Positions 25,555-32,831 of a stretch of 33,264 nucleotides of DNA are shown here, piece after piece. Positions within the stretch are counted from its first letter, which is position 1. The number at the start of each line of letters is the position of its first letter. The DNA is taken from NCBI GenBank assembly GCA_017883305.1, contig JADGNU010000007.1, forward strand, positions 1 through 33,264, in the 5' to 3' direction. Source of the stretch: Candidatus Aminicenantota bacterium (GTDB lineage: Bacteria; Acidobacteriota; Aminicenantia; Aminicenantales; Saccharicenantaceae). Both the position numbers and the translations under genes were made by a program. The notes under the pieces are model-generated. The model saw only the letters and a list, made by a program, of their open reading frames with translations. It searched no databases and was not told where the DNA came from.

Positions 25555-26490
25555 TCACTTCGGCGCTGGTTTTTCGGCCAGAGCGGCGGCCGTGGCACGG
25601 AGAAGCGATTCCCCGGCCGCTTCGAGGCCGTCCGGCACGCGCATCGCGCCGCAGAGAACGCTTCGGACCCGTCCGATATACAGATGCTGACCGTAGCGGT
25701 TCCGGGCGTGGAAGCCAAGCGCCAGCTTCTCCACGGACTGGTTGTCCGCGCCCAAGGCCGCAAGGAGCTTGGTCAGCATCTCTTCCGCCGCCTTATCCGA
25801 CCCCCCGTCGATGAAGAAACCCTCCAATTCGCGGCCGCCGGGCTTATAAGTCGCGACATAGCCGTCGTGGAGGAATTCGTAGCCCATGAAGTTCTTCTTG
25901 ATGTACTTCTCGCTCCGGGAGACAAGGTTATCCTTGGGAAAGGCCCGGACGAGCGCCGGGAGCCCGCCCCCGGCCTTGATGGCCCCGGCGATTTTGGCCC
26001 CGATCTCTCCGAGGGTTGATTCGGTGGCCTCCCCGAGCCCGAAAGCCAGCATCTTCACATAAAAGCGCCCCGACAGAAAATTCAGGGCCTCGCCCTCGAC
26101 ATAGCCCAGATCGCCCAGAGCCACCACCTTGTTTTCGGGATAGCGCTCGGCGCCGAAGATACCGAAAGCGTTGAGCGGCAAGCCCATATCGTAGATCTCG
26201 AGGGTCATCGTCGCGTCCGTGCCCTTTCTGACCAGGTCGGCGACGAGCAGCTCGCGGAAATCATAGCTCAGGTAGCTTTCGGCGGCCCCGTCGATATATT
26301 CGAAGAGGTTGTCGGGGAAATAGCTCCTCGGGGCTTCCGAAAGGGACCAGGCGGCGAGTTTCGGCACGAGAGCCGAAAGCTCGGGGTTCGCCGGACGCGT
26401 TTGGGAGGCCGCCGCGATCGGCGCCAGAAGACAGAAAACCGCCAGGGCGGCCGGAACGGCCGGCCCTCTCCGGATCCGGGCGCTGGGCAT
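25555..26490 (-). CDS. DUF6599-family exported protein
   Basis: A 311-residue exported protein with a signal peptide (ARIRRGPAVPAALAVFCLLAPIAAA). The core has the DUF6599-type block SYFPDNLFEYIDGAAESYLSYDFRELLVADLVRKG, then MTLEIYDMGLPLNAFGIFGAERYP and NFLSGRFYVKMLAFG; no enzyme motif is visible and the function is unknown. It may be periplasmic; no lipobox is seen. The ATG at 26490 is preceded by GGAGG with 6 nt spacing; an in-frame TTG at 26496 is less likely. It is divergent from the DUF362-radical SAM operon, with promoters back to back, and is followed by the AI-2E permease, probably in the same transcript. Confidence 0.75.
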   Translation of the reverse strand: MPSARIRRGPAVPAALAVFCLLAPIAAASQTRPANPELSALVPKLAAWSLSEAPRSYFPDNLFEYIDGAAESYLSYDFRELLVADLVRKGTDATMTLEIYDMGLPLNAFGIFGAERYPENKVVALGDLGYVEGEALNFLSGRFYVKMLAFGLGEATESTLGEIGAKIAGAIKAGGGLPALVRAFPKDNLVSRSEKYIKKNFMGYEFLHDGYVATYKPGGRELEGFFIDGGSDKAAEEMLTKLLAALGADNQSVEKLALGFHARNRYGQHLYIGRVRSVLCGAMRVPDGLEAAGESLLRATAAALAEKPAPK

Positions 26491-26520
26491 GATCAACCTC
26501 CACGGGGCGAAATATCAATT

Positions 26521-26549
26521 ACTATATCGGAGGGCCCCTGTCTTGGCAA
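26521..26549 (-). promoter_or_regulatory. Promoter of the DUF6599-permease pair
   Basis: Minus strand TTGCCA (26549-26544), a 17-nt spacer and TATAGT (26526-26521). The ATG at 26490 lies 30 nt downstream and has a good Shine-Dalgarno sequence. Confidence 0.62.
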
Positions 26550-26562
26550 GCCTGAGGTCCGG

Positions 26563-26594
26563 TTGACAGGTTCCGCCAAAAGGCCCATCATAAT
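26563..26594 (+). promoter_or_regulatory. Promoter of the DUF362-radical SAM operon
   Basis: TTGACA (26563-26568) and CATAAT (26589-26594), spaced 20 nt apart, longer than usual; CATCAT at 26586-26591 gives 17 nt but a poorer -10. Either way the ATG at 26601 is only 6-9 nt past the -10 box and has no Shine-Dalgarno sequence, so transcription would start at or beside the start codon. The -35 boxes of this and the opposite promoter are 13 bp apart. Confidence 0.45.
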
Positions 26595-26600
26595 TCAATC

Positions 26601-27500
26601 ATGGTCAGAGCCCGAGTCGTCGTCGTAAGATCGCCGAACGCCTGGACCACGGCCGGCGATCCCGATCCGGCCGTCGTCACCAGGATGTTCGGCCGCGGTT
26701 TCGCCCTTCTCGGGGACGGGGCCGACGAACGCTCCGCGGCGGCGGCGTTGTTCCGCCCCGACGACCGCGTCGGCATCAAGATCAACACGATCGGCGGCCG
26801 GGCCATCAGCACGCGGCCCGAGGTCGCCCTATCACTCGCCGGATGGCTCGCCGGGAACGGCCTGGCCGCGAAGAACCTCTTCATCTGGGACCGGACGACG
26901 CGCGAGCTCCGCGGGGCCGGCTATGCCCCGGCAGCCGGACCGGATGGCGTCCGGATCTTCGGCACGGACACGGACGGCGTCGGATACGGCACCGATCTTG
27001 TCTCCCACCTCGGCGTGGGCAGCCTCTTCTCCAAGATCCAGACGGAATTCGCCACGGCCTCGATCAGCCTGGCCATTCTCAAGGACCACGGCCTGGCCGG
27101 CGTGACGGCCGGCATGAAGAATTATTTCGGGGCCATCCACAACCCCAACAAGTACCACGATTCCCACTGCGATCCCTTCGTCGCCGAGGTCTTCGATTCT
27201 CCCCCGGTCAAATCCCGCCACCGCCTGACGATCCTCGACGCCCTGGTCGTCCAATTCCATAAAGGGCCCTCTTATCACGCCCGCTGGGCCAATAAATTCG
27301 GCGGCCTCGTCTTCAGTCTCGACCCGGTCGCGGCGGATGCCGTCGGATGGGCCCTCATCGAACGGCTGCGGGCCGCGGCCGGACTGCCGACCCTTCGGGA
27401 CGAAGACCGGGCCCCGGATTACCTCTTGACGGCCGAAAAGATGGGCCTCGGCCGGGCCGACCCGGCGTCGATCGATACGGTCGAGGAGACGGTCGCATGA
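26601..27500 (+). CDS. DUF362 domain-containing protein
   Basis: A 299-residue DUF362 protein without the CxxC-rich ferredoxin domain some members carry; it has a single Cys, in HCDPFVAEVF. Family features are VRARVVVVRSPNAW at the start, the VGIKINTIGG strand, LKDHGLAGVTAGMKNYFGAIHNPNKYH, ILDALVVQFHKGPSYH and SLDPVAADAVGWALI. Other DUF362 proteins in such neighbourhoods often carry a Tat signal; this one does not. No Shine-Dalgarno sequence precedes the ATG. The stop overlaps the next start by 4 nt (ATGA), so it is coupled to the radical SAM gene. Function unknown; it differs strongly from the other DUF362 gene at 163-1239. Confidence 0.85.
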   Translation: MVRARVVVVRSPNAWTTAGDPDPAVVTRMFGRGFALLGDGADERSAAAALFRPDDRVGIKINTIGGRAISTRPEVALSLAGWLAGNGLAAKNLFIWDRTTRELRGAGYAPAAGPDGVRIFGTDTDGVGYGTDLVSHLGVGSLFSKIQTEFATASISLAILKDHGLAGVTAGMKNYFGAIHNPNKYHDSHCDPFVAEVFDSPPVKSRHRLTILDALVVQFHKGPSYHARWANKFGGLVFSLDPVAADAVGWALIERLRAAAGLPTLRDEDRAPDYLLTAEKMGLGRADPASIDTVEETVA

Positions 27501-28621
27501 ACCGGCGGGGCTTCCTCCGCGGCGCGGCGGGTGCCGGCCTGGCCATCGGGGCGGGCGGCCTCCCCTCTTTCGGCCGCCGGCTGGCCGCGGCGAACGCGGG
27601 GCCGAACCTCTCGCGCGTCGAGGCCCGCTATTACGTCAAGCACCCGGACCGCGAGATCGAATGCAAGCTCTGCCCGAGGCTCTGCAAGCTCGGCGACAAG
27701 GAGCGGGGCTATTGCGGGGTCCGCGAGAACGACGGAGGCACCTATTACACGCTGGTCTACGGCAAGGTCTGCAGCGCCAACGTCGACCCGATCGAAAAGA
27801 AACCGTTCTTCCATGTGCTGCCGGGCACGACGGCTTTTTCGTTGGCGACGGCCGGCTGCAATGTGAACTGCAAGTTCTGCCAGAACTGGGAGATCGCCCA
27901 GGTCCGGCCCGAACAGGTCGAGGCCTTCGACCTCGCGCCGGAGGCCGCCGCGGCCCGGGCGGCGGGGTCAGGTTGTCCGTCGATCGCTTACACCTACACC
28001 GAGCCGACCGTTTTTTACGAGTACATGTATGATACCGCGGTCCGGGCCAAGGGCCGGCGCCTCCGCAATCTCGTCGTGACCGGGGGTCACATCAACCCTG
28101 AACCGCTGACCGACCTCCTGGCCGTCGTCGACGCCGTCAAGGTCGACCTCAAGGGATTCTCCGAGGAGTTTTATAGCGAGTACGTCCGAGGCAAGCTTAA
28201 ACCCGTTCTGGAGACGATCCGGACCGTCGCCAAATCCAAGGCCTGGCTCGAGATCGTGGCCCTCATCATCCCGACGCTGAACGACGGGCTGCCACAGATC
28301 CGGGAGATGTGCCGCTGGATCAAGGGCGAGGCCGGAGACAGCGTCCCTGTCCACTTTACGCGCTTTCAGCCGATGTACCTCGTCAAGAACCTTCCTCCCA
28401 CCCCGGTTTCGACGCTCGAGGCTGCGCGGAATATCGCCCTCGAGGAGGGCCTGCGTTTCGTCTACGTGGGCAACGTCCCCGGTCACGAAGGCGGGAATAC
28501 CTACTGTCCCGGCTGCGGCCAGGCGCTGATCACGCGAGCCGGCTACTCGATCGAGACCGTCCGGCTCAAGAAGGGCAAGTGCACGGCATGCGGGACGCCG
28601 ATCCCCGGCATCTGGTCCTGA
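27497..28621 (+). CDS. AmmeMemoRadiSam-type radical SAM enzyme with a Tat-like signal
   Basis: A 374-residue radical SAM protein of the group annotated as AmmeMemoRadiSam or PflA-like (COG1180). The SAM-cluster motif is CNVNCKFC (Cys121, 125, 128), preceded by IEKKPFFHVLPGTTAFSLATAG and followed by GCPSIAYTYTEPTVFYEYM. Before it, CKLCPRLCKLGDKERGYCGV gives a four-Cys motif, and the C-terminus has a zinc-ribbon-like CPGCG/CTACG pair. Unusually, the N-terminus reads MNRRGFLRGAAGAGLAIGAGGLP, a twin-arginine motif plus hydrophobic stretch. The ATG overlaps the DUF362 stop. Substrate unknown; no Memo or AMMECR1 gene is seen in the window. A membrane spermidine-synthase-like gene follows. Confidence 0.9.
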   Translation: MNRRGFLRGAAGAGLAIGAGGLPSFGRRLAAANAGPNLSRVEARYYVKHPDREIECKLCPRLCKLGDKERGYCGVRENDGGTYYTLVYGKVCSANVDPIEKKPFFHVLPGTTAFSLATAGCNVNCKFCQNWEIAQVRPEQVEAFDLAPEAAAARAAGSGCPSIAYTYTEPTVFYEYMYDTAVRAKGRRLRNLVVTGGHINPEPLTDLLAVVDAVKVDLKGFSEEFYSEYVRGKLKPVLETIRTVAKSKAWLEIVALIIPTLNDGLPQIREMCRWIKGEAGDSVPVHFTRFQPMYLVKNLPPTPVSTLEAARNIALEEGLRFVYVGNVPGHEGGNTYCPGCGQALITRAGYSIETVRLKKGKCTACGTPIPGIWS

Positions 28622-28644
28622 AGCCCTGGGCTCCCCCATTCCTG

Positions 28645-30762
28645 ATGGGCTTTCTGGCGGCCGCTTTTCAGGTCTATCTCCTCCGGGAATTTGGGGCCGA
28701 GTTCTACGGCAATGAGCTGATCTTCGGCTTGTTCCTCGGTTCCTGGCTCTTGTGGGGCGGACTGGGCAGCCTCGTCAAGCCCCCGCTTAAGACGCGGGCC
28801 GGTGAAACGAGACTGGCGGGGCTCTACGGCTGGGCCATCGTTCTCTTTTTTGCCGGGCTCGTCGTCCTGAGGTTTTCCCATAAGCTCATGGGCATCCTGC
28901 CGGCCGAGCTGACCGGCCTCGTCCCCGCTCTGGGATTCGCCCTCCTGCTGAGCCTCTTTCTAAGCTTCCCTTTGGGGCATTCGTTTGCCCTCAACGCGGG
29001 GTCCCACGCCGGCGGCGTTCCGTCCGTTTACATCCTCGAGTCGGCCGGCGCGGCGGCGGCCGGCCTCGTCGTCAACTTCGCGCTCGTTCCGAGATTCTCC
29101 AATTGGCAGGGGGCCGCCATCGTCGGCGCGGCGGCTGCGGTCATGGTCCTCGTGACGATGAAGCCCGGCCGGTGGAAGGTCCTGCTGGGGGCGGCCATTG
29201 TGCTGGCCGCTGGTCTGGCGGGATTCGATTTCCCGGCCCAGAAGGCCGCGTGGAGCCCCCTTCGCTTGGTCGAGGCCGGCGATACGCCCTACGGCAAGCT
29301 CCAGGTCATCCGGAACGAAGAGCAGGTCACGTTCTTCGACAGCGGCCTGGCCGTCTTCTCCCATCCCGATGAGGGAGCGGCCGAGGAATCGGTCCATTTC
29401 GCCCTGCTCCAGCGGGACGCGCCGCGGGACATCCTCCTCGTCGGCGGTGGCGCCAGCGGCGGTGCTGCCGAGGCCTTGAAATACCCCGGCGCGCGCGTGG
29501 ACTGCGTCGAGCTTGATCCCGCAGTCATCCGCCTGGCGAAAAAGCACCTGACCGGCCCCGACCGGTCCGCGCTCGAAGACCCGAGGGTCCGCATCTTCTA
29601 TCGCGACGGCCGCTCCTTTATCGCTCGCACGGCCGGGCGCTATGACGCGATCCTCCTCAGCTTGCCGGAGCCGGCGACGGCCCAGGTCAACCGCTACTAT
29701 ACCCGGGAATTCTTTTTCCAGGTGCGGCAAAAGCTCCGGCCCGAGGGGGTCTTCAGCTTCGTCGTCCCCTCGGCCGAGAACTATATCAGCGACGATCTCG
29801 GCCAGTTCCTGAGCTCGCTTGCGGCGACGCTCCGCGCGGTCTTCCCGAACGTCACGGCCGTCCCCGGCGCGAATTGCGTTTTCCTGGCCTCAGACGCGCC
29901 CCTCTCCATCGACCCCGTCCGGCTTTCAGCCTCCATCGCCAAGCTCGGCCTAAAACTCCGTTTTGTCAGCCCGGGCATGCTCCCCGCCCGCCTCGATCCG
30001 GGGCGTGTCGAGTACCTGGCCCGCAAGATCTCGGCGCCGGGCGCAAGGATCAATCGCGACCTAGTTCCCGTCAGCTATTATTTTCACTCGGTCCTTTGGG
30101 CGGGCCAGTTCCGCGGGATCGAGTCGAGCGTTCTTCGCGCGGCCGGACGCATCGGCCCGGCCTGGCTGCTCGACATGCCTCTCGGGGTCTTCGCTCTGGT
30201 GCTTCTCCTGCTGGCGATATTCAGGAGGCGTTCTCCGGCCCGATTCCTTGTCCCCGTGGCCGTAATGGGCTTCACCTCGATCGCCGTGGAACTGGCCGTA
30301 TTCATCGCCTTCCAGGCCCGATTCGGCTTTGTTTATGGCAGGATCCCTCTTCTTCTCGCGCTGTTCATGGCCGGACTGGCCATCGGATCGCTCGCCGCCA
30401 GGATACGGAGGCGGTCGGGCGGCTTCGATCTGCCCGCGATTCAGGGAGCGTTCGTCCTCCTGCTTCTCCTTACGTCCAAGGTCCTCTCAGGGGCCGGTGG
30501 CGAGGCCGCCTCGATAGCCGTTCTTTTCGGCTTCGGCGTCCTCGGGGGCTACCTGTTTGTCGCCGCAAACAGGCGGCTCGTCCCTGAGGTCCCCCATCCA
30601 GGCCTCGGCTACGGCGTCGACCTCCTGGCCTCGTTCGCCGGGGTCATCCTGGCCTCGGGCCTGATCATCCCCCTTTTCGGCATCCCCGCCTTGCTCCTCC
30701 GCCTGGCCCTCCTCAACGCCCTCTGCTTCGTCTACCTCCTCGTCTCTCCGCGTCCCCTGTAA
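28645..30762 (+). CDS. Membrane protein with spermidine-synthase-like domain
   Basis: A 705-residue protein: about six or seven membrane helices (from FLAAAFQVYLLREFGAEF onward, about residues 1-200), a Rossmann-like spermidine-synthase-fold domain, and several C-terminal helices (about residues 510-700). The SAM/decarboxy-SAM site reads DILLVGGGASGGAAEALKYP then VDCVELDPAVIRLAKKHL. The DxDP motif holding the catalytic acid of true spermidine synthases is replaced by LPEPAT (about residue 340), followed by QVNRYYTREFF. So aminopropyl transfer is unlikely; methyl transfer or sensing are possible. I use the ATG at 28645; a CTG overlapping the radical SAM stop is an alternative. No good Shine-Dalgarno sequence is seen, which fits coupling to the gene before it. 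Confidence 0.8.
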   Translation: MGFLAAAFQVYLLREFGAEFYGNELIFGLFLGSWLLWGGLGSLVKPPLKTRAGETRLAGLYGWAIVLFFAGLVVLRFSHKLMGILPAELTGLVPALGFALLLSLFLSFPLGHSFALNAGSHAGGVPSVYILESAGAAAAGLVVNFALVPRFSNWQGAAIVGAAAAVMVLVTMKPGRWKVLLGAAIVLAAGLAGFDFPAQKAAWSPLRLVEAGDTPYGKLQVIRNEEQVTFFDSGLAVFSHPDEGAAEESVHFALLQRDAPRDILLVGGGASGGAAEALKYPGARVDCVELDPAVIRLAKKHLTGPDRSALEDPRVRIFYRDGRSFIARTAGRYDAILLSLPEPATAQVNRYYTREFFFQVRQKLRPEGVFSFVVPSAENYISDDLGQFLSSLAATLRAVFPNVTAVPGANCVFLASDAPLSIDPVRLSASIAKLGLKLRFVSPGMLPARLDPGRVEYLARKISAPGARINRDLVPVSYYFHSVLWAGQFRGIESSVLRAAGRIGPAWLLDMPLGVFALVLLLLAIFRRRSPARFLVPVAVMGFTSIAVELAVFIAFQARFGFVYGRIPLLLALFMAGLAIGSLAARIRRRSGGFDLPAIQGAFVLLLLLTSKVLSGAGGEAASIAVLFGFGVLGGYLFVAANRRLVPEVPHPGLGYGVDLLASFAGVILASGLIIPLFGIPALLLRLALLNALCFVYLLVSPRPL

Positions 30763-30817: not shown

Positions 30818-31762
30818 ATGTTTGAGGATTCGCTAGTCAGGCCGAAAACCGAGAAGCCGACGCGCCGCGATGTGGCCATCGGCATTCTCGTCACCTTTCT
30901 TTTCCACGCGCTCCTGGCCATTGCCATCATCTTCGGCCGCATCACGGTCAAGGTCCTGCCAATCGGGAAGGAAGAGGTCCGCACGGTCCTCATTGTCCCC
31001 CCGCTCAAGGTGGCCATCCCGAAGGTCGTCGGCGGCCACGGTCTCTCCGAGGTCCCCGGCGAGGGGCGGGGGGCGGAGGGACCCGCAAAGGCCCTGCCGA
31101 AGCCCGAGGCCGCCCGGCCGGAACCTGAGGCCGCGCCCGCGGAGCCTGTCGAGTCCGGCGTCGCGGGATTGCCGGCCGGAGGGGGGACCGTCCCGCCCCC
31201 CGGTTCCGGATCCGCGATCCCCTCGCTGTCCTCGAGATTCCAGCAGTCGATCGCCATACACGGCAAGTCCGGCCTGACTATCCCTCTGGCCCCGCCGGGG
31301 ACTCCCCCCGGCCCTCCGGGCGTCGGTGCCGGCGCCCCCCTCCCCGATTTCACGAAATACAACCGCGGCGCGTACAGCGGCGGGGTCGGCGGATATGGGA
31401 CAGGAGGCGGCGGGACCGGACGTGGGGTCGGCGGCGGAGGCCGCCAGCGGGTCGGGATGTCCATTCCCCTCAAAGGCTACGACCTCCTGCCCTGGGCGAC
31501 CATGGTCATCGACCGGCTCCAGCTCAACTGGACTCTCCCCGCGGTGCCCGAGGTGCCCGACGCCGCCAGGATCAGCATGATCGTCGTCATCAAGAAGACC
31601 GGCGAGCTCGATTCGATCGAGATCCTCGAGGGGACCAGCCTCGAGGCGCTCGACCGGGCCGCCCTCGAGGCCGTCCGGGCCTCGCTGCCCTTCCCCGCCC
31701 TTCCCGCTGATTTTCCCGGCGACCTTCTCGAGATCACCTTCGAGTTCGTCTACAATGATTAA
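30818..31762 (+). CDS. Energy transducer TonB-family protein
   Basis: A 314-residue inner-membrane protein. After a 20-residue cytoplasmic head comes one membrane helix (VAIGILVTFLFHALLAIAIIFG, about residues 19-40), a long Pro/Gly/Ala-rich periplasmic region (about 70-215, including Gly-rich YSGGVGGYGTGGGGTG), and a TonB C-terminal domain: SMIVVIKKTGELDSIEILEGTSLEALDRAALEAVRASLPFPALPADFPGD. TonB passes proton-motive energy to outer-membrane transporters. AGGA 3 nt before the ATG. It overlaps the next gene by 8 nt. No exbB/exbD genes are nearby, and no outer-membrane receptor is in view, so its partner is unknown. Confidence 0.85.
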   Translation: MFEDSLVRPKTEKPTRRDVAIGILVTFLFHALLAIAIIFGRITVKVLPIGKEEVRTVLIVPPLKVAIPKVVGGHGLSEVPGEGRGAEGPAKALPKPEAARPEPEAAPAEPVESGVAGLPAGGGTVPPPGSGSAIPSLSSRFQQSIAIHGKSGLTIPLAPPGTPPGPPGVGAGAPLPDFTKYNRGAYSGGVGGYGTGGGGTGRGVGGGGRQRVGMSIPLKGYDLLPWATMVIDRLQLNWTLPAVPEVPDAARISMIVVIKKTGELDSIEILEGTSLEALDRAALEAVRASLPFPALPADFPGDLLEITFEFVYND

Positions 31763-32831
31763 GAGAATAGCGGCCGGCCTCCTCATCGCCTTCGCGCTCA
31801 CGGCCGCCCTCCGGGCGGATTGGAGGACGGAGCTCAACGCCCGACTCGGGCGCAACCCCGATTACCGGGCCGCCTTGGATTACCTTGTCGAGCAATCCAA
31901 GACGCTCGAGCCCGAGGACAAGCAGACGGCGGCCTTCATCCTGCCCTTCCTCGCGGCCCGGCTCGACGACAAGGAAGGCGAAAGGACCCTCGTTGCAGAT
32001 TACTTCGAGACCTACTTCGACAACGACCCCGACTTCGGATTTCTCAACGAATACACCCTGCGCAACTTCATCGCCTTCTGGATATCCTGGAAGCGGGTCT
32101 ATCCGCTCGTCCACGACGTCAACCTCCTGTCGTATTCGAGGACCCCGGCGACGGGGCTGCCGGCTTCGATCGATGTCGGCTTCGAACTCCTGAACGAGGC
32201 CTTCTACAGGGTCTCGCTCGGCCCTTACATCCTCGAAGGCGGCCACTGGCCGAAGGGATTCCATATCCTGACCATCCCGCTTCGCGACCTCTTCGCGCGC
32301 TCGGGCACCTATGAATTCGTGCTCGACCTCAAGGCCGGCGACCTCATCGTCCGCAAGCCCGTGCGCGTCCAGGTCGAGATCGCCGACATCGCTCCCTCCC
32401 GCGGTCCGGCACCCGAGGAGAGATTTGCACCCCCTCCGGCCACGTCGGCGAAGCCTATCCAGGAGGGCGAGATCTTGGTCTACATCGACGGCAAGCTGGT
32501 ACTGAGGAGCCGCAAGATCGCCGCCAGGCCCGCCCCCTTCACCTTCCCTCTCGGCGGGCCTCTCATGCGAGGCCAGAAGCCGTACATGCCGCCCCCGACG
32601 AACGACCCCATGATGATGAACGGCGTCAACATCGTGGACGCCCTGGCCCTGGCCTACAAGGCGATCAAGGACCTGGTCGCCAAGAAGCCGCCAAGGCCTT
32701 CGGCCCCCTCCTACCAGAAAGTCAGCGTCCTCTCATTCGCCTATTCCCGCACGACATCCGCCGGCCAATCGGTCTCGGCCCGGGCCTCCCTGTCCCTCCC
32801 CCCGGCCCGGGCGGTCATCCTCAAGGAATAG
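31755..32831 (+). CDS. Exported protein of unknown function
   Basis: A 358-residue protein with a signal peptide (IKRIAAGLLIAFALTAALRADW). I recognise no family. The N-terminal half has an alpha-helical segment with TLRNFIAFWISWKRVYPLVHDVNLLSY, then a beta-rich section (IDVGFELLNEAFYRVSLGPYILEGGHWPKGFHILTIPLRDLFA). A Pro-rich linker and VYIDGKLVLRSRKIAARPAPFTFPLGGP follow, then a Met/Pro-rich segment (RGQKPYMPPPTNDPMMMNGVN) and a C-terminus with many small residues. Its start overlaps the tonB-like gene by 8 nt, so it is co-translated; an envelope role tied to TonB is inference only. It ends 118 nt before the PilZ gene. Confidence 0.72.
   Translation: MIKRIAAGLLIAFALTAALRADWRTELNARLGRNPDYRAALDYLVEQSKTLEPEDKQTAAFILPFLAARLDDKEGERTLVADYFETYFDNDPDFGFLNEYTLRNFIAFWISWKRVYPLVHDVNLLSYSRTPATGLPASIDVGFELLNEAFYRVSLGPYILEGGHWPKGFHILTIPLRDLFARSGTYEFVLDLKAGDLIVRKPVRVQVEIADIAPSRGPAPEERFAPPPATSAKPIQEGEILVYIDGKLVLRSRKIAARPAPFTFPLGGPLMRGQKPYMPPPTNDPMMMNGVNIVDALALAYKAIKDLVAKKPPRPSAPSYQKVSVLSFAYSRTTSAGQSVSARASLSLPPARAVILKE

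Follow-up and report, generated by a model that had tools for sequence, protein, structure and literature searches.

The 33,264-nucleotide stretch of Candidatus Aminicenantota DNA analysed here (contig JADGNU010000007.1; hereafter the window) carries between positions 25,555 and 30,762 a three-gene operon for a DUF362 protein, a radical S-adenosylmethionine (SAM) enzyme with a twin-arginine translocation (Tat) signal and a membrane protein with a spermidine-synthase fold, with a gene for an exported DUF6599 protein facing the other way. In our view this operon probably encodes the radical-SAM half of an AmmeMemoRadiSam system located outside the cytoplasm. AmmeMemoRadiSam systems have three defining components, AMMECR1 (A), Memo (B) and a radical SAM enzyme, represented in NCBIfam by the models TIGR04335, TIGR04336 and TIGR04337, respectively. 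The operon apparently belongs to a widespread exported variant of this known, functionally unsolved system, a variant of which we found no description in the literature searched. The features of the locus are as follows.

25555..26490, minus strand: exported DUF6599 protein (PF20244; Pfam 159.9 bits, cut-off 27), ATG start, alternative TTG at 26496
26521..26549, minus strand: promoter-like site for DUF6599, TTGCCA-17-TATAGT, consensus match only
26563..26591, plus strand: promoter-like site for the DUF362 operon, TTGACA-17-CATCAT, consensus match only
26601..27500, plus strand: DUF362 protein (PF04015) with a LarA N-terminal-domain fold, no signal peptide of its own
27497..28621, plus strand: Tat-signal radical SAM enzyme of the AmmeMemoRadiSam family TIGR04337 (366.9 bits, curated cut-off 220)
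27497..27580 (end approximate), plus strand: twin-arginine signal MNRRGFLRGAAGAGLAIGAGG, read from the sequence and missing from cytoplasmic paralogues
27857..27880, plus strand: radical SAM [4Fe-4S] motif CNVNCKFC (CX3CX2C), read from the sequence
28588..30762, plus strand: 14-helix membrane protein with an inserted spermidine-synthase-fold domain (PF01564, 73.7 bits), start placed by comparison with relatives
29224..30156, plus strand: spermidine-synthase-fold domain (residues 213-523, between helices 7 and 8), predicted to face outward, SLPEP in place of DLTDP

All four genes lie where the initial annotation had placed them, and the 4-nt overlap it reported between the DUF362 and radical SAM genes is present as ATGA at 27497-27500, the radical SAM ATG beginning at 27497 and the DUF362 stop ending at 27500. 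The 'short junction' described between the radical SAM and membrane-protein genes is likely an overlap instead, as the membrane protein likely starts at ATG 28588, 34 nt within the radical SAM gene (compare relatives L045, L051 and L055); an ATG downstream of the radical SAM stop would cost part of helix 1. The N-terminus of the divergent DUF6599 protein, MPSARIRRGPAVPAALAVFCLLAPIAAASQ, is by inspection a signal peptide, in keeping with the export proposed, and the reported 110 bp separates its ATG at 26490 from the DUF362 gene (104 bp from TTG 26496). Back-to-back promoters had also been suggested, and this gap holds promoter-like sites facing both ways, three on both strands compared with 0.1 expected, by consensus match.

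The radical SAM protein passes the TIGR04337 cut-off comfortably and also matches PF04055 (53.9 bits), with the CX3CX2C motif present in 191/191 aligned relatives. The initial annotation had recognised the radical SAM family, while missing both the AmmeMemoRadiSam assignment and the secreted Memo-AMMECR1 partner; an interpretation from the window only, as four unrelated families, was dropped after the NCBIfam match and the relatives were considered. The source genome encodes two TIGR04337 enzymes, the window copy with its Tat signal and a copy on contig C8 with no signal, together with two Memo and two AMMECR1 domains, one of each being fused on contig C51. This fusion begins with a signal peptide (MSRTFRALIVLGLLAPAAALAQ) and scores 254.8 bits against the Memo model TIGR04336 (cut-off 26) and 176.6 bits against the AMMECR1 model TIGR04335 (cut-off 99). 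The unfused AMMECR1 is located on C40 and the unfused Memo, lacking a signal, on C282. The genome therefore appears from its sequence to hold one cytoplasmic and one exported AmmeMemoRadiSam set, the secreted fusion being an obligate-looking partner of the Tat radical SAM enzyme. Residues His72, His104 and Cys248 of the fusion are invariant in our alignment, and the two histidines align with His49 and His81 of MEMO1, which together with Cys244 are the MEMO1 iron ligands (PMC11081632). Elsewhere, one genome (G316; loci L251 and L257) encodes Memo and AMMECR1 as separate genes, each with a lipoprotein-like signal, such that the exported pair is unfused.

Export of the enzyme is suggested by Tat motifs, by Sec-type signals in other lineages, by exported partners and by a clade bearing a haem-attachment motif. 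The Tat-like N-terminus noted initially proved to be a twin-arginine signal, with NRRGFLRG followed by a hydrophobic stretch, and a TatC gene is found on contig C329 of the source genome. A Tat motif is present in 95/122 exported-type radical SAM enzymes, and is replaced in other lineages, mainly Omnitrophota, by a Sec-type signal peptide. Eighteen enzymes harbour CXXCH after the signal and ahead of the radical SAM core. Seventeen of these (L086, L095, L098, L101, L102, L105, L106, L108, L109, L110, L115, L190, L193, L198, L202, L208 and L210), along with the truncated L184, form one clade with support of 1.0, and L172 lies outside it. Attachment of haem c takes place exclusively outside the cytoplasm, hence the motif argues that these enzymes are exported. 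Exported enzymes fall mostly into a single clade (116/122, compared with 1/66 of the cytoplasmic type, that one being a truncated gene). A cytoplasmic radical SAM protein had been named as an outcome contrary to the envelope location proposed for these genes; the protein carries a predicted export signal instead, and all the evidence points to the cell envelope.

Conservation was followed in a phylum survey that yielded 80 loci and in a second, separate contig scan, by radical SAM profile alone, that yielded 80 more. Throughout the phylum-survey loci the DUF362, Tat radical SAM and membrane-protein genes are kept together with order or strand often altered, and non-Tat radical SAM paralogues there have none of the DUF362 or membrane-gene neighbours. 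Linkage of the three genes extends over the class and a large part of the phylum, with the membrane gene on the opposite strand in 25/66 loci, and this persistence through changes of strand and order argues for a linkage beyond chance; their neighbours stay linked, and do not vary freely as the initial annotation had allowed for. Of the four-gene co-occurrence it had proposed, this three-gene part is conserved, while DUF6599 adjoins the operon mainly within the order to which the window belongs. Outside that order the secreted Memo-AMMECR1 fusion adjoins and DUF362 bears a Tat signal of its own in many relatives. In the second scan, at least one of three partners was located no more than 4 kb away in 52/70 exported enzymes, and loci with the same partners came from Planctomycetota (including Scalindua and Brocadia), Omnitrophota, KSB1, Latescibacterota, Poribacteria, Elusimicrobia, WOR-3 and others.

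Exported and cytoplasmic-type enzymes differ markedly in their surroundings. The Memo-AMMECR1 fusion is nearby in 72/122 exported and 1/36 cytoplasmic-type enzymes (p 2.6e-10), DUF362 in 49/122 and 0/36, and a spermidine-synthase-like gene in 66/122 and 5/36, respectively. The five cytoplasmic-counted loci with a spermidine-synthase-like neighbour (L184, L168, L182, L185 and L200) were kept in these counts; L184 has its N-terminus cut by a contig end and groups in the haem clade. The other four belong to a small separate radical SAM clade with no clear signal and uncertain starts, and L168 and L182 also have NosR/NapH-like neighbours.

At the genome level, 119 genomes of the class divide into 85 with both exported enzyme and fusion, 8 with the enzyme only, 8 with the fusion only and 18 with neither; the fusion is thus present in 85/93 genomes with the exported enzyme, compared to 8/26 without it (Fisher p 1.4e-9). 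Several exceptions correspond to broken contigs or a divergent enzyme: the fusion is in one frame in G120, lies in pieces at contig edges by coordinates in G230 and G138, and shares a contig with a divergent enzyme in G261. Among 23 genomes of other groups in which no fusion was seen near the enzyme, it is encoded elsewhere in 18, and these distant fusions bear signal peptides or lipoboxes in nearly all readable cases. A minimal form, in family f6, comprises only the secreted Memo-AMMECR1 and the Tat radical SAM enzyme. Given this form, and the loci from which DUF362 or the membrane protein is missing, both of these are accessory.

The membrane protein was described initially as polytopic with a spermidine-synthase fold, and its structural model (predicted local distance difference test (pLDDT) score 91) agrees, showing 14 helices in a 7+7 arrangement with the folded domain between helices 7 and 8. 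This domain matches polyamine aminopropyltransferases (1uir, E 1.5e-12, TMt 0.74; also 3anx). Across 35 relatives, Lys+Arg counts differ between the two sets of loops, at 12.0 and 2.5 (sums from tabulated counts), which by the positive-inside rule places the domain probably on the outer face. The nucleotide-binding GGG and E-D-P positions are retained as in SpeE and the fused major facilitator superfamily (MFS)/spermidine synthase proteins, with which the fold is shared. Unlike in those proteins, the domain lies between 7+7 membrane helices and DLTDP reads SLPEP; the catalytic aspartate being lost, aminopropyl transfer by this protein is unlikely. The protein falls below the cut-off of the MFS_SpdSyn model (33.9 bits, cut-off 40) and below the spermidine synthase equivalog cut-offs (best score 114 of 472).

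From gene content, linkage, co-occurrence, signals and folds we infer the following mechanism. Tat would carry the folded [4Fe-4S] radical SAM enzyme across the inner membrane, and the exported enzyme would use SAM and low-potential electrons on Memo-AMMECR1 itself or on a substrate at its metal site. Electrons could enter via the haem-c insertion in one clade and via DsbD-like or NosR/NapH-like neighbours in others; such candidate donors lie beside the enzymes, namely the DsbD-like PF13386 in Omnitrophota and NosR/NapH-like flavin mononucleotide and 4Fe-4S proteins in other loci. The membrane protein, with its outward SAM-type fold devoid of the aminopropyl-transfer aspartate, might serve at the membrane to bind SAM or its products or to exchange them, and DUF362, which combines a LarA-like fold with invariant His and Lys residues, may act on the product downstream. 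In the fuller form, a radical SAM pathway would run wholly outside the cytoplasm in many phyla, from exported enzyme and metal-binding Memo-AMMECR1 to outward SAM-type membrane protein and electron entry by haem c or by thiol or iron-sulphur carriers spanning the membrane, a proposal towards which we lean slightly. In six Omnitrophota loci (L160, L171, L174, L188, L195 and L197) a DsbD/CcdA-like membrane protein stands beside a Sec-signal radical SAM enzyme; that of L174 was confirmed as PF13386.

A different emphasis comes from DUF362, whose 299-residue model (pLDDT 96) has the fold of the LarA N-terminal domain (Z 14-16, with the next unrelated chain at 4.7; 7s91 gives Z 16.1 over 210 residues at 3.4 Å). 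DUF362 and DUF2088 are placed in one Pfam clan, CL0471 (PMC11770544). By sequence, no relative of DUF362 is present in the PDB. The operon might accordingly serve a nickel-pincer chemistry of the envelope, in which DUF362 is a LarA relative dependent on the nickel-pincer cofactor and the radical SAM enzyme prepares its substrate or cofactor. Besides the fold, it draws on the invariant His163 and Lys173 of DUF362, in register and with equal spacing to His182 and Lys192 of the neighbouring LarA homologues, on the presence of LarC in the source genome, and on family f6, in which 8/9 loci with DUF362 come from LarC-bearing genomes and 3/8 without. The His/Lys correspondence is suggestive, but the profile comparison with those homologues is not significant (probability 0.3 percent), and DUF362 covers the first LarA domain only, short of the two-domain architecture of ~420 residues. 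Moreover, LarC does not strictly track the exported system, as several system-bearing genomes are without it, including one with DUF362 in the small and related f6 sample, and some exported systems have no DUF362 at all. We therefore regard this explanation as improbable. Six loci (L094, L097, L104, L107, L111 and L152) have genes for a LarA-like (DUF2088-type) protein and for an exported von Willebrand-like protein flanking those of the exported system.

The N-terminal signal could also be a membrane anchor or a chaperone-binding tail, with the enzyme working on the cytoplasmic side like ordinary AmmeMemoRadiSam. The cytoplasmic location of SAM, reductant and iron-sulphur assembly speaks for this, as does the signal-free DUF362 of the window, but an anchor is hard to reconcile with cleavable-looking signals or lipoboxes on the Memo-AMMECR1 partners, with the Tat signal of DUF362 in other groups, with the CXXCH clade, or with a signal whose type varies by lineage while the signal itself is retained; we judge it a poor prospect. 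Slightly better placed, and still unlikely, is a sub-mechanism of the extracytoplasmic system in which the radical SAM enzyme acts as an activase, installing a glycyl-type radical on the AMMECR1 domain, which would then catalyse extracellularly. The closest characterised relatives are glycyl-radical activases (pyruvate formate-lyase (PFL) activase 3c8f; YjjW and PflA models below cut-off), and Arg356, Gly357, Cys358 and Gly360 (RGC.G in the LRGCIG loop) are invariant in alignment A2; yet the searches made show no relation between AMMECR1 and glycyl-radical enzymes, and in humans AMMECR1 occurs without the radical SAM enzyme. Chance adjacency of unrelated envelope genes, finally, is scarcely credible and largely refuted for the core genes, given that the genes for DUF362, the radical SAM enzyme, the membrane protein and Memo-AMMECR1 reappear in many phyla despite changes of order and strand. 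It finds some footing in DUF6599, an AI-2E transporter and a TonB-like gene, whose adjacency does not extend beyond the order, family or genus.

Several observations nonetheless weigh against an extracytoplasmic AmmeMemoRadiSam system, our preferred explanation. The window itself contains no Memo-AMMECR1, the fusion being unlinked to the operon in the source genome, and its DUF362 lacks a signal peptide; some loci lack DUF362 or the membrane protein. Motif and hydropathy were the sole basis for calling signals, the split between exported and cytoplasmic clades has moderate support (0.65), and the Fisher tests make no correction for shared ancestry. The literature searched describes no radical SAM enzyme outside the cytoplasm. 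We know of no SAM supply outside the cytoplasm, and of no machinery for extracellular [4Fe-4S] insertion, which the Sec-type versions would need.

Compared with the known AmmeMemoRadiSam system, all three components score above curated cut-offs in the source genome, where an ordinary cytoplasmic set appears to exist in parallel; the differences are the export signals, the fusion of A and B, and the addition of DUF362 and the membrane spermidine-synthase-like protein. Both domains of the fusion match the structures of human MEMO1 and archaeal AMMECR1 (7kq8, 3bcz; 1vaj, 1zq7, 1wsc), although MEMO1 is intracellular and the bacterial protein is a secreted fusion. Likewise, the exported enzyme shares its radical SAM subgroup, by profile, with the PFL activating enzyme 3c8f, but scores far below activase cut-offs and differs in having extra N- and C-terminal Cys clusters, an export signal and, in one clade, the haem-c insertion. 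The literature searched names AmmeMemoRadiSam only in passing, and yielded no paper on a Tat radical SAM enzyme with DUF362 or on a periplasmic radical SAM enzyme.

Radical SAM enzymes are regarded as cytoplasmic because the cytoplasm is where SAM, reductant and iron-sulphur assembly are found. An exported, haem-bearing radical SAM enzyme conserved across phyla would break this rule and raise the question of how SAM reaches the periplasm; a wholly extracytoplasmic pathway would imply that both SAM and low-potential electrons are available there. The system also offers a handle on the chemistry of Memo and AMMECR1, which are widely conserved, including in humans: with the two occurring as a secreted fusion that has an enzyme of its own, the enzyme, partner and compartment become testable together.

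DUF6599, on which the literature searched holds no paper, flanks the operon mainly in the order of the window, and its wider association is with Tat-type DUF362 genes. The source genome has six DUF6599 genes, of which those on contigs C53, C33, C338 and C228 adjoin a DUF362-type gene, and some nine DUF362 places; the DUF6599-DUF362 pair recurs in L134, L138 and L145. This suggests a separate DUF6599-DUF362 module. The recurrent pairing makes the link to DUF362 meaningful without making DUF6599 a core part of the system; it is a loose, recurrent DUF362 neighbour and, in the window's order, an optional exported partner. Source-genome instances of DUF6599 beside a Tat-type DUF362 are found at L127:3905-5938, L130:701-3370 and L131:5289-7461.

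Outside the operon, the window contains a second DUF362 gene at 163-1284 on the minus strand (PF04015 match C53:505-1122). Directly downstream of the membrane-protein gene lie genes for a TonB-like protein (30818-31762) and an exported protein of unknown family (31755-32831), which are kept only at genus-family level.

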